Virus record (IMG/VR): IMGVR_UViG_3300009514_000013
Location: 20,363-84,362 of that record
Length of the DNA stretch: 64,000 nucleotides
Strand: one strand, 5' to 3'
Origin: a virus
In this document: positions 5,649-30,269 of the stretch, piece by piece
Layout of the letters: every line of letters begins with the position of its first letter
Position numbering within the stretch: position 1 is the first letter of the stretch
Position numbers and translations under genes: made by a program
The notes under the pieces: model-generated
Database searches by the model: none
Told to the model about the DNA's origin: nothing
The model's input: only the letters and a program-made list of their open reading frames with translations

Positions 5649-6790
5649 CAACCCGGCCAGAGAATCTCTGAGATGAATACTGGGATCTGATTGGTATGGA
5701 TCGGAAACAACCTTCCATCGGTTTCGTTTGCAATGTCATCAAAAAATGCTTGTAGCTCAACAAATCCGTAGAATGTGATACCTCTCGCTTTCAACTCGTT
5801 TGCCACATCTTGCTCTGTTAACCCTCTTGCACTTTGACCATGTTCATCAGCAAACAAGAAGATGAATCGATTTGCTCCTGGTCTCCAATGTACGAACCTT
5901 CCCTTAGCCGCATCACTGATGATGTCGTATGACAGTTCGCTACTTCCAAATGTCCTGGTCATAGAAGCCAGGTTGTTCGGGTCAGGGCATGGTCCAACTG
6001 GAAATGTCATGCCTAGCGAATAGCATTCTCTATTTGGAGAAGCTGTTGAGGTGGTGTTCCCACCAGGCATGTCGATTGGGAACATAGCCACATCAGTGGA
6101 ATCGTCTTGAGTCTGTCGATTCCAGTAGTCAGCCAGCGAATCTCCAACAACAGAGACACGAGTTCCCATTGAACAACTACGGTCGATAATCACTACGATG
6201 TCGATTTTGACTACGTCCCCTGTGTTTGGAACGTCATCCACAACTCCATTACAATCGTTATCGATCTGGTCACATCGTTCGGCGAATGGAAGAACCTGAC
6301 CTTCACAAATCCACTTTCCATAATCACAATAAGAAAGTCCTATTTTGCATGGTGGGTGTGTAGCTTTCCAAAACTCAGCATCGAAGCACCAGTCTCTGGC
6401 GATCCCGTCATCAACCAACCCGTTGCAGTCGTTGTCTGAACCGTCACATTCTTCTGGTTGTTTCTTGTAATCGGTTGAACAGACGATCTCTTCCCCGTTG
6501 CAGACAGTCCGTCCCCCTCGACAGATGCCCAACCCACATGATTCTCCGACCCCACCGATCCGGTCGTCGACTTCACCATTGCAGTCATTGTCAATACCGT
6601 CACAAATCTCATCGCTTGGAAGAATGTCACCGACACATGAGACACCTATCGATGATGTTTCAGTGGTTCCAGGCCGACATTGCCCAACTCCCGAAGTTCC
6701 ACTTGGTCCCGAATAGCAAGAACCGTAGTGACTCACGAGTGGTTCTTCACACGCATATAGAAGTACCAAGAGGATTGAAAGGCTTCTCAT
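5645..6790 (-). CDS. Lipoprotein with three MopE-type metal-binding motifs and a VWA domain
   Basis: 381 residues, minus strand. A lipoprotein signal ends LLYAC near residue 14. Three Cys/Asp motifs of the form C-D-x-x-D-N-D-C-N-G-x-V-D-D lie at roughly residues 60, 112 and 165, the pattern called the MopE-type putative metal-binding motif. A von Willebrand A domain follows with MIDAS DRSCS (D-x-S-x-S). Further cysteines suggest a secreted, disulfide-rich fold. Such motifs are typical of myxobacterial and other deltaproteobacterial surface proteins. In a phage this looks like a lysogenic-conversion or surface-remodelling cargo gene. ATGA-coupled to the upstream HExxH lipoprotein gene. Confidence 0.85.
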   Translation of the reverse strand: MRSLSILLVLLYACEEPLVSHYGSCYSGPSGTSGVGQCRPGTTETSSIGVSCVGDILPSDEICDGIDNDCNGEVDDRIGGVGESCGLGICRGGRTVCNGEEIVCSTDYKKQPEECDGSDNDCNGLVDDGIARDWCFDAEFWKATHPPCKIGLSYCDYGKWICEGQVLPFAERCDQIDNDCNGVVDDVPNTGDVVKIDIVVIIDRSCSMGTRVSVVGDSLADYWNRQTQDDSTDVAMFPIDMPGGNTTSTASPNRECYSLGMTFPVGPCPDPNNLASMTRTFGSSELSYDIISDAAKGRFVHWRPGANRFIFLFADEHGQSARGLTEQDVANELKARGITFYGFVELQAFFDDIANETDGRLFPIHTNQIPVFISEILWPGC

Positions 6791-25211: not shown

Positions 25212-25608
25212 AGAGAAGTACCCAAATGTGAAACCAGCTCCTCTTCTTTCGGATAGCGATCGAAATAGGTGGATCGTAGAAAAAGAACCACAGAAGGTAG
25301 AGACAGAAGATCTCGTTGTAGAGGAGAAAAAGGCTGAACCTGTTGTTGATCGATGGGCGAAGATTGGCAAACTCTCTCTCAATCTCGACGGGATCGGTGG
25401 TACAGTTCCAGAACTTCTCTTGCTCCTCATTGCAGAAGTTAGAGAGTTGGTGATGCAACCAAAACAAGAAACAGTTGCTTCAGTGGTTCAATCCAGACCG
25501 GATTTGCAGAATGCTTTGAAAGACAGCATCGGAGAGATTCAAAAGATGATGGGTGCTCTCAACCGAGGTAAGCCAGGAACTCCATTGAAGAAGGTGAATG
25601 GAGAATGA
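25198..25608 (+). CDS. Hypothetical protein
   Basis: 136 residues; Lys/Glu-rich linker then a helical domain (VPELLLLLIAEVRELVM). The stop overlaps the start of xxSL member n. No function assigned. Confidence 0.5.
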   Translation: MTTFEEKYPNVKPAPLLSDSDRNRWIVEKEPQKVETEDLVVEEKKAEPVVDRWAKIGKLSLNLDGIGGTVPELLLLLIAEVRELVMQPKQETVASVVQSRPDLQNALKDSIGEIQKMMGALNRGKPGTPLKKVNGE

Positions 25609-25805
25609 AGAAGGTTGAAATGAAACCTCTTGGCTCCTCGCTTTGGTTCTCGCTTGAGGACTCGCTTGAGGACTCGCTTGAGTTCTCGCTTGAGGACTCG
25701 CTTGAGGACTCGCTTAAGGACTCGCTTTGGTCCTCGCTTGGCTCCTCGCTTTACTCCTCGCTTGGCTCCTCGCTTTGGTTCTCGCTTAGAGAGGAGTTGA
25801 AGTAG
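25605..25805 (+). CDS. xxSL-repeat microprotein, member n (expanded array)
   Basis: 66 residues; ATG 25605 in an ATGA overlap. Leader MKKVEMKPL is identical to member d. Thirteen units follow: GSSL-WFSL-EDSL-EDSL-EFSL and so on, then REELK. The variable positions favour E-D here and R/W/G in member d, so arrays expanded independently after a shared leader. Confidence 0.6.
   Translation: MKKVEMKPLGSSLWFSLEDSLEDSLEFSLEDSLEDSLKDSLWSSLGSSLYSSLGSSLWFSLREELK
25632..25787 (+). repeat. 12-bp in-frame tandem repeat, 13 units
   Basis: Units such as GAGGACTCGCTT, GGCTCCTCGCTT, TGGTTCTCGCTT. All retain TCGCTT. Several neighbouring units are identical, suggesting recent slippage. Confidence 0.95.
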
Positions 25806-27067: not shown

Positions 27068-28216
27068 ATGAAACGGAAAAAATGCGGCAAATGCGGCAAA
27101 GTCAGACAGATGGCTTTGAACGGAAAAAGAAAAGATGGGGCTCAGAAATATAGAAACGTATGTAATTCTTGCAAAGGTAAATCTCCTAATAATCGTCGAA
27201 AAGTTGAACGTCCCATCAAGACAAAGATTCCAGATGAAGCTCCGACCAAAAACCCACAAATACTGAAACTGTGGCAGCTGGCTTCAACACGACCTCAAGC
27301 ATTCGAAGAACTCTGCGATCGTATGGATGTGTCACCGAAGATCATGCGGAAACTGATCCAAGAAGCTAGGGATGGTGGTTTAAGCATTCATGTAGAAAAC
27401 GATCATGTTGGTGCTCGAGTCCAATCTATTGATGACGAACAAAATCTTTTCCACAAGAACGATATTTCTCCTGTGGTCGGTAAAGAAGTTGTTGTAGGTG
27501 TTATTTCCGATACCCACTACGGATCGAAGTACTGCCTTCGTGGTCACATCAAAGACGCAGTGAAGAAGATGTACGAAGCTGGTGCTCGAATCATTCTTCA
27601 TCCTGGAGATGTGATCGATGGTTGTTATCGACACGGTGAGTTCGAACTCACTCATTACGGTTTAGAGGATCAAGTTCGTGACCTTTTCAAGAATCTACCC
27701 AAACACAAGGGTTTATCGTATCACTGCATCACTGGCAATCATGACGACACGTTCTGGGACCGGACCGGAGTCAATGTTGGTCACTATATCGAAGGGACCT
27801 TTAGGCGTCGTGGACGAAACGATATTCACTTCTACGGCCAACGAGGAGCTTTCCTCAATATATACGGCGTTCGAGTACATTTGTGGCACCCACGAGGTGG
27901 AGGGAGTTACGCTCGAAGTTATGCCCTCCAGAAAAAACTAGAAGGGTACATGCCGGGTGAGAAGCCAAAGATCATGGTGGCTGGCCACTGGCATCAGTAC
28001 TGTCATATTCACGAGAGAGGTATCCACGCATTTATGTGCCCGACCTTCCAAGGGGGAGGATCTGCGTTTGGTCGCTCGATGAGAGGTTCTCCGAATATCG
28101 GTGGATTGTTGTTTAGATGGCGTCTTGCGGAAAACGGAACCCTCCGACAATTCAATTCCGAGAAATTCACCTATTACGAGAGAGAAGTTGTCCACGAGGT
28201 TGGAGAATCTGAGTAG
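27068..28216 (+). CDS. Zinc-ribbon, HTH and metallophosphoesterase protein
   Basis: 382 residues. The N-terminus has two CxxC pairs (CGKCGKVRQM and CNSCKGK); residues about 70-110 form a helix-turn-helix (FEELCDRMDVSPKIMRKLI); the rest is a metallophosphoesterase with SDTHYG, GDVIDG, GNHDD, HPRGG and GHWHQ. The DNA-binding N-terminus suggests a nuclease or phosphatase acting at DNA, possibly tied to packaging as it is near the terminase nuclease. That link is inferred. Confidence 0.85.
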   Translation: MKRKKCGKCGKVRQMALNGKRKDGAQKYRNVCNSCKGKSPNNRRKVERPIKTKIPDEAPTKNPQILKLWQLASTRPQAFEELCDRMDVSPKIMRKLIQEARDGGLSIHVENDHVGARVQSIDDEQNLFHKNDISPVVGKEVVVGVISDTHYGSKYCLRGHIKDAVKKMYEAGARIILHPGDVIDGCYRHGEFELTHYGLEDQVRDLFKNLPKHKGLSYHCITGNHDDTFWDRTGVNVGHYIEGTFRRRGRNDIHFYGQRGAFLNIYGVRVHLWHPRGGGSYARSYALQKKLEGYMPGEKPKIMVAGHWHQYCHIHERGIHAFMCPTFQGGGSAFGRSMRGSPNIGGLLFRWRLAENGTLRQFNSEKFTYYEREVVHEVGESE

Positions 28217-28969: not shown

Positions 28970-29743
28970 GTGTCAATTCCAATCCGTCTCAAGTCGATTC
29001 CTCTATGGGTTGAACACTGGTCAGAAGAATCACTCCGGAAGAGATACTCCCAAGAACCAAGAGCATTCGAACGCGGATTCAGACTCAAGGCATTCTCTGA
29101 TGATGAAGCAACATTCCCGAGCTTCTCCCAATGCGAAGTCCCTGGGATCACTCTTGGAGAGATTCAACGATCGAACTGGCCCAAGTTCACAGGAGTCGAC
29201 CTCTCATCTAAGAAGCGTCCTGGTAACACCATTGCCACGGTTGCAGTCGATCCGAAGACAAGACGTCGATATCCCATAGACATTCGATATGGTGCCTGGA
29301 GGTCATCTGAGACGGCTGAGCAAATCCGTATTGTTGATGAACTCTTCAGCCCGATGGTTATCATGGTTGAAGACAACGCTTACCAAGAGGCTCTCCTGGA
29401 TTGGATCTCTGATGACAAGTCTCGGTTTCCGTATTGGGTTAAGATCGAAGCCACTACCACTACAGGTGGTAGAAAGTCGGATCTAGAGAAAGGTCTCCCC
29501 GGACTTGAGGTCGAATTCTCGAAAAAGGGTTGGGCGTTTCCCCTATCCGAGTATGAGAATGTGACTCCTGATGAGGCACCACCAGCTGGCCACTGGGCGC
29601 GTTTAGCCCAAGAACTTCGCCATCACCCCATTGCAGCTACATCGGACGGTGTAATGGCTTTGTGGTTCGCCAGGCAAGGTATTGAACTCTACGGCGGAAT
29701 GGCTTTCCACGATGTCCAAATTGGAGACTTGACAGTCCGCTAA
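28970..29743 (+). CDS. Terminase large subunit, separate nuclease domain
   Basis: 257 residues from GTG 28970, with GGAGGA at 28960-28965. Reads as the C-terminal half of TerL: linker PLWVEHWSEESLRKRY (residues 11-26), then RNase H-like nuclease with GVDLS (Asp77), IMVEDNAYQ (Glu134/Asp135) and TSDGVMALWFA (Asp226), the three acidic positions of T4 gp17 D401/E458/D542. It should cut phage concatemers in complex with the ATPase at 13970. The stand-alone gene has its own SD and a natural start. Confidence 0.85.
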   Translation: MSIPIRLKSIPLWVEHWSEESLRKRYSQEPRAFERGFRLKAFSDDEATFPSFSQCEVPGITLGEIQRSNWPKFTGVDLSSKKRPGNTIATVAVDPKTRRRYPIDIRYGAWRSSETAEQIRIVDELFSPMVIMVEDNAYQEALLDWISDDKSRFPYWVKIEATTTTGGRKSDLEKGLPGLEVEFSKKGWAFPLSEYENVTPDEAPPAGHWARLAQELRHHPIAATSDGVMALWFARQGIELYGGMAFHDVQIGDLTVR

Positions 29744-29763
29744 CACTAATTTGATCTTTTATA

Positions 29764-29951
29764 GGTTGTGCACGCAAACGTGACGGAGGGTCGTAAAAGG
29801 AGTACTGGTGGTCCGGGTTGCGACGGAGAAGCCTGCGAGACTGGCGTATACAGGGGGATGAGACACATGCTGAAGCCCCGATACCAGTCAGGTGGCATTG
29901 TGGTTCCGACTGCGATGTTCATCAGTTGTGTGACGATCGGGAGAGACCGAT
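29764..29951 (+). ncRNA. Candidate structured RNA after the terminase nuclease gene
   Basis: No convincing coding frame. Stem-loops by eye: CACG-CAAA-CGTG (29771-29782); GTCGTAA (29790-29796) with TTGCGAC (29818-29824); CCT...GACTGG..TAT (29832-29849) with ATA-CCAGTC-AGG (29881-29892), enclosing GGGG/CCCC; ATCGG-GAGAGA-CCGAT (about 29935-29951). Several stems include G-U pairs, as expected of RNA. With the tRNA-like domain that follows it fills a gap of about 300 bases. Confidence 0.45.
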
Positions 29952-29954
29952 ATC

Positions 29955-30034
29955 GGGGATGAGAAGGGTTCGACAGTCTGATGAAATCCTGAAAGGGACC
30001 AGGCTGGACCAGCGTTCGATTCGCTGCATCTCCA
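29955..30034 (+). ncRNA. tmRNA-like tRNA domain without a tag region
   Basis: 80 nt. Acceptor GGGGATG (29955-29961) pairs with CATCTCC (30027-30033) with a G-U at pair 3-70 and A73, the alanine identity set. The 5' half has GGGTTCGAC, the tmRNA D-loop hallmark; the 3' half has GGAC directly before T-arm CAGCG-TTCGATT-CGCTG. Between them CAGTCT (29974-29979) pairs with AGGCTG (30001-30006) as a short P2 helix. The roughly 250-nt mRNA-like part of normal tmRNA is absent. CCA is not encoded. It does not fit a normal tRNA. Confidence 0.55.
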
Positions 30035-30071
30035 TTGAAACCAGGTGGGCAAATGAGCCTAGCTTTATTGG

Positions 30072-30269
30072 ATGCGTATGAACTCGGTAAGAAAACATGC
30101 TCTCAAAGCGGGAATGGCCAACTCCATGTGGACCCCTGAAGATATCCGTGAAATTCGCAAGTTGAGGGAAGAGGGTTCCTCTTACAAGGAAATCCTTTAC
30201 ATGTACCCGATGTCCAAATCCACACTTTCCTACATTGTGAATTACAAAACCCATGTATCATCTCTCTAG
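30072..30269 (+). CDS. Small helix-turn-helix protein
   Basis: 65 residues; ATG 30072 or, more conservatively, ATG 30114. The C-terminal segment WTPEDIREIRKLREEGSSYK and STLSYIVNYKTHV has the layout of resolvase/transposase-type HTH. A possible regulator of virion genes. A 28-codon frame at 30053 overlaps and is not called. Confidence 0.5.
   Translation: MRMNSVRKHALKAGMANSMWTPEDIREIRKLREEGSSYKEILYMYPMSKSTLSYIVNYKTHVSSL

Follow-up and report, generated by a model that had tools for sequence, protein, structure and literature searches.

The closest described counterpart of the locus reported here is the TLD-only tmRNA (a tRNA-like domain without mRNA-like domain) of mycobacteriophage DS6A, for which Mao et al. 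2009 is reportedly the primary paper. Hudson et al. 2014 list DS6A as 'TLD only'; according to them, tmRNA was strongly inhibited by a similar molecule whether or not this could be charged, and titration of SmpB is a possible cause (PMC4131195). The inhibition by the similar molecule, in E. coli, is repeated by Nawrocki et al. 2025, where CDS-less tmRNAs in mitochondria and two plastid sequences are described and the search included RefSeq viruses (PMC11915505). No paper describing a broad family of such genes in phages was found in our literature search, the primary DS6A paper being outside its scope.

The 80-nt RNA gene and its genomic setting

The window analyzed here comprises 64,000 nucleotides of virus record IMGVR_UViG_3300009514_000013, and the coordinates of this locus refer to it. 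A search with covariance model RF00023 (cmscan) matched 29955-30037 with 56.0 bits and E 2.5e-21, above the gathering score of 47, thereby supplying the Infernal match which a preliminary description had named as a check and confirming the coordinates it had given for an 80-nt TLD exactly. The alignment spans model positions 1-374, nearly the entire interior being deleted. Within the complete virus record of 84,362 bases the same match has E 9.1e-23, and a second tmRNA match was absent from the RF00023 search. The individual parts and the neighbouring frames are:

28970-29743, + strand: upstream neighbour, C-terminal (nuclease) part of the terminase large subunit (phrog_38 positions 485-699, E 4.4e-8)
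29955-30034, + strand: TLD-only tmRNA (mini-tmRNA) gene, 80 nt (RF00023 match; mature ends inferred)
29955-29961, + strand: 5' strand of the acceptor stem, GGGGAUG, contributing G3 to the alanine identity pair G3-U70 (sequence; conservation in relatives)
29966-29974, + strand: tmRNA D-loop hallmark GGGUUCGAC (sequence; Rfam alignment)
29974-29980, + strand: P2 5' strand CAGUCUG (sequence; P2 covariation in relatives)
29987-29998, + strand: apical hairpin UCCU-GAAA-GGGA capping P2 (folding; comparable apical hairpin in relatives)
30000-30006, + strand: P2 3' strand CAGGCUG (sequence; covariation in relatives)
30010-30026, + strand: T arm CAGCG-UUCGAUU-CGCUG (sequence; Rfam alignment)
30027-30034, + strand: 3' strand of the acceptor stem, CAUCUCC, with U70, and discriminator A73 (sequence; conservation in relatives)
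30072-30269, + strand: downstream small ORF with weak HNH/invertase-family matches (phrog_20467, E 1.2e-5; phrog_125, E 0.0045)

The full RNA (29955-30034, +) reads GGGGAUG-AGAA-GGGUUCGA-CAGUCUG-AUGAAA-UCCU-GAAA-GGGA-C-CAGGCUG-GAC-CAGCG-UUCGAUU-CGCUG-CAUCUCC-A. The two acceptor strands (29955-29961 and 30027-30033) pair in 7/7 positions including G3-U70 and are followed by A73 at 30034, P2 comprises 7 bp, the T arm is perfect and GGAC lies just 5' of it, whereas CCA is not encoded at the 3' end (CUCCA-UUG). The acceptor with G3-U70, A73, the hallmark GGGTTCGAC and the GGAC before the T arm, all of which had been pointed out beforehand, can thus be read directly in the sequence; the D-loop hallmark of tmRNA is the SmpB/T-loop contact region. 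The 'short P2' of the preliminary description is present as well but does not account for the whole region, which consists of P2 and, on top of it, an apical hairpin of 4 bp closed by a GAAA loop, standing where a full tmRNA has its mRNA-like domain and pseudoknots. With only about 31 nt between the hallmark and GGAC no room remains for an mRNA-like domain, a resume codon, a tag frame or pseudoknots, and together with the deleted model interior this bears out the proposed lack of a tag region.

While the T arm and the GGNUUCGAC D-loop hallmark are present, an anticodon arm is absent (sequence, Rfam alignment); RF00005 (tRNA) gave no match at E 1, and the criteria of a tRNA (D arm, anticodon arm, tRNA call) are not met. 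A full tmRNA was rejected, as the criteria for an mRNA-like domain are unmet and the sole tmRNA match in the record is TLD-sized. A permuted two-piece tmRNA, which had been doubted from the outset, was likewise rejected, the halves being in normal order and the permuted model reaching 10.9 bits versus a cut-off of 47. Evidently, 29955-30034 (+) is a tmRNA tRNA-like domain which is complete and normally ordered but lacks an mRNA-like domain; as a TLD on its own in a phage genome it fulfils the genomic criterion of a phage TLD-only tmRNA of the DS6A type. ARAGORN returned 0 genes, and the mini-tmRNA was equally missed when the full window was scanned by cmscan under its default filters; genes of this sort may stay unannotated for that reason. 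The single-sequence fold is unremarkable (z -1.29), and the evidence consequently lies in the match to the family model and in the comparative data.

The mini-tmRNA sits in a 328-base gap with the terminase-like ORF on one side and small ORFs leading to the portal gene on the other; a ClpP-like head maturation protease is located upstream. Of the 760 profile positions the terminase match spans just the C-terminal stretch 485-699, so that the ATPase part may be encoded by another gene elsewhere. Amid the head and packaging genes a 382-aa ORF (27068-28216) shows exonuclease-type matches (phrog_7339, phrog_284), and a 66-aa ORF (25605-25805) consists mostly of a short repeat (SLEDSLEDSLEFSLEDSLEDSLKDSLWSSLGSSLYSSLGSSLW). 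In the upstream 210 nt (29744-29954) neither a convincing Rfam family nor unusual folding was seen. A search near the mini-tmRNA gave no sigma-70-like promoter, so expression of the gene would need late-operon read-through or another promoter type. Neither SmpB nor a tRNA, a tyrosine integrase or a serine resolvase was found in the 84-kb record; the suggested search for an integrase elsewhere in the genome thus came back empty. As the record is classed as linear and may be incomplete, these absences are not final. Close relatives of the phage were found neither in IMG/VR by a terminase peptide scan nor by DNA searches of phages, and its portal is only 22% identical to those of two Komagataeibacter phages.

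Recurrence, covariation and alanine identity elements

IMG/VR was scanned with a pattern which demands the tmRNA hallmarks and permits just 20-50 nt from the fixed parts of one half to those of the other. The N8 D-arm spacing matched 81 IMG/VR contigs and the N7 spacing at least 119; the window's own RNA has N7 spacing and is therefore unmatched by the N8 pattern. At least 120 IMG/VR matches were obtained with a third, acceptor-free pattern. Pooled, the three scans amount to about 240 short TLD-only loci among the matches listed, in which the 3' 60 nt occur in 182 distinct versions and from which 111 representatives remain at a similarity below ~85%, whereas a scrambled core (TTCGA to TTGCA, same pattern) gave zero IMG/VR matches. 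Among the matches listed two tight length classes stand out, 61-68 nt and 74-82 nt, the peak being at 79 nt, and inserts of 51-81 nt are rare in IMG/VR (17 loci). These intermediate-insert loci (L177-L193, n=17) measure about 92-115 nt overall.

Whole-record searches of 39 IMG/VR phage records gave one above-cutoff tmRNA match each, TLD-sized in every case. SmpB was found in 0/29 IMG/VR phage records tested, and as it was also not found in the window's record, the SmpB of the host would be the partner. The genomic contexts differ, comprising the terminase/portal gap, the gap between head protease and major capsid protein, positions beside helicase or exonuclease genes, and tRNA clusters; this variety, from tRNA clusters to head and packaging genes, fits a trans-acting RNA. 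As in the surroundings of the window's gene, phrog_284 recurs in locus L126, there as an exonuclease immediately before the TLD. One contig of 136 kb (IMGVR_UViG_3300027749_000047) carries two separate TLD-only matches (L224 and L242). At 5905-6228 of locus L024 a tmRNA of 324 nt carrying an odd tag (AWDYNPMWVQCSA) was called by ARAGORN, although its 3' end belongs to a TLD-only gene (5908-5987); annotation software may hence make a false full-length tmRNA from a mini-tmRNA. A single scan of 84,980 species genomes of bacteria and archaea, performed with the N8 spacing only, was nearly empty, so that the gene looks like a viral one. Its two matches (L083, L084) both failed Rfam and were treated as chance.

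Copies in cultured phages were identified by BLAST in the Streptomyces phages LuckySocke, GiJojo, Alone3, pSt2308 and BRock (n=5). None of the five copies has an RNA annotation, the site in GiJojo being listed as a hypothetical protein. In LuckySocke, pSt2308 and BRock, for which the surroundings were read, the copy lies within a tRNA cluster, and the tmRNA model scores are 57.1 bits for LuckySocke and 61.0 bits for pSt2308.

P2 of the family is fully compensatory. In 86 representatives standard pairing reaches 91-100% at its pairs 1-5, where as many as six pair types occur, and slid P2 registers are mostly 20-50% paired, except for the first pair at a slide of +1 because of a conserved GG. 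For 14 diverse 79-nt members 96.4% of the cells are paired versus 66% in shuffles and at most 55% in slid registers, with a covariation score of 0.779 versus 0.183 in shuffles. As the search patterns prescribed the D-loop hallmark and the T loop, the conservation of these two is not independent evidence. In the longer class a small hairpin recurs atop an internal loop with conserved A residues. As the Rfam consensus P2 also runs beyond a 3-by-1 internal loop (RF00023 alignment), the mini form may be read as a tmRNA truncated just above this loop and then capped, a homology inferred from the alignment.

The first two scan patterns forced G3-U70, and their count of 134/134 was excluded as evidence. 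In the acceptor-free scan, among the matches listed, A73 was found in 113/113 and G3-U70 in 112/113 distinct sequences, the sole exception (L213) having a degenerate or mis-registered acceptor. Within the same sample pair 4 occurs as five types, pairs 5 and 6 vary widely, and pairs 4-6 covary. G3-U70 is an established identity element of AlaRS. Its retention together with A73 while the neighbouring pairs vary points to selection for charging by AlaRS; that alanylation is under selection in the family would be the natural inference, in the absence of charging data. The possibility of alanine charging raised in the preliminary description hence gains support from the near-invariant G3-U70 and A73 of an acceptor-unbiased sample, charging itself being inferred.

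Proposed role and rival explanations

The RNA fold, the missing mRNA-like domain, the recurrence in phages, the covariation and the kept alanine identity elements are directly supported. Their reading in terms of function, which we hold to be rather probable, is that of a phage-encoded, trans-acting, alanine-charged and tagless tmRNA mimic competing with the host tmRNA; the host of the phage is unidentified, and for none of the members examined here is there evidence on expression, charging or binding. The 80-nt RNA would be excised from its transcript in a tRNA-like manner, receive CCA from the host, be charged with alanine by the host AlaRS via G3-U70 and be bound by host SmpB and EF-Tu like tmRNA. 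It would then enter ribosomes stalled at mRNA ends, or merely occupy SmpB. Offering neither resume codon nor tag, it would compete with the host tmRNA and thereby blunt trans-translation and ssrA tagging during infection. That the mini-tmRNA is transcribed, processed, charged and bound by SmpB is inferred, as is the inhibitory outcome; by the same inference it probably interferes with the host rescue of stalled ribosomes. The earlier idea of a decoy finds its published experimental analogue in the case of phage DS6A (PMC4131195, PMC11915505), and inhibition by the RNA of the window would be inferred from this analogy.

The main rival is a tag-free rescue, in which Ala-TLD together with SmpB takes the nascent chain and the ribosome dissociates or recycles without a degradation tag. 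It would free ribosomes and spare phage proteins, resembling the role proposed for tagless mitochondrial tmRNAs, and we regard it as the less likely reading without dismissing it. The almost invariant G3-U70 and A73, by which charging is probably selected, speak for it, and many carriers lie within phage tRNA clusters next to other translation genes; we know, however, of no established route by which peptidyl-TLD could leave the ribosome in the absence of a resume codon. CDS-less tmRNAs persist alongside SmpB in some mitochondria (PMC11915505), whereas the sole experiment on a similar phage-type molecule is reported as inhibition (PMC4131195). As this inhibition occurred regardless of chargeability, a simple titration of SmpB leaves the strict G3-U70 unexplained, and its conservation may indicate a productive role. 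The inferred selection for alanylation argues against a pure protein sponge as well as against a remnant; as the conserved charging determinant fits both an inhibitor and tag-free rescue, it does not choose between them.

A cis-acting tRNA-like processing signal, where cleavage by RNase P/RNase Z at the TLD splits the neighbouring late-gene messages, would fit those several phages in which the gene lies between co-directional packaging or head genes. The widely differing contexts, tRNA clusters included, count against such a signal, which would moreover require neither G3-U70 nor the tmRNA D-loop, and we consider it improbable. Least credible of all is a tmRNA remnant without function, of phage or host origin, or a fragment of an attachment site, both of which the preliminary description had entertained. 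While ssrA is often used as an integration site by islands and prophages (PMC11915505), the TLD is complete with both halves and no integrase or resolvase was found in the record, which argues against an att site in ssrA; the strong covariation and the recurrence in many diverse phages argue against a remnant, and the species genomes (N8 scan) gave only the two chance-like matches failing Rfam.

Comparison with described tmRNA forms

We lean towards a large unannotated phage family of mini-tmRNAs of about 60-90 nt, mostly with a capped P2 hairpin, selected for alanylation and acting on stalled host ribosomes in many phage lineages, either as trans-translation inhibitor or as tag-free rescue RNA. 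If this family is real, as is suggested by the data, many phages bear an RNA aimed at tmRNA-SmpB which standard annotation overlooks. The conserved G3-U70 yields the specific prediction of a need for charging, by which an active ribosome substrate can be told from a mere SmpB sponge, and the cultured Streptomyces phages LuckySocke, GiJojo, Alone3, pSt2308 and BRock offer a direct test system. Furthermore, mini-tmRNAs would provide natural minimal examples with which to ask what the ribosome does with a message-less tmRNA.

Among standard phage tmRNAs, that of Streptomyces phage Wakanda has the same TLD and lies in a phage tRNA cluster, but is full length (280 nt) with the model interior present. 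The permuted two-piece tmRNA of cyanophage S-CAM1 is similar to the mini-tmRNA in the sequence of T arm and acceptor; it differs by its permuted halves and its mRNA-like domain, the mini-tmRNA being in normal order. The mitochondrial tmRNA without mRNA-like domain (RF02544) and the ~65-bp Mallomonadaceae plastid tmRNA likewise retain the TLD and have no tag frame, yet are organellar and not phage-borne, and those of mitochondria are accompanied by an SmpB which is encoded in the nucleus and targeted to the mitochondrion. The TLD-only tmRNA of DS6A (Mao et al. 2009) is of the same type, a TLD alone in a phage, and a single case; in the literature accessible to our search the phage TLD-only tmRNA has so far been this one odd case. 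With DS6A as the one published phage precedent, the gene in the window is a further case of the same kind, whereas the breadth of the family, its shared architecture and the conserved G3-U70 appear to be undescribed, and it is the size of the family, its constancy and its charging signature which constitute the new and interesting part.
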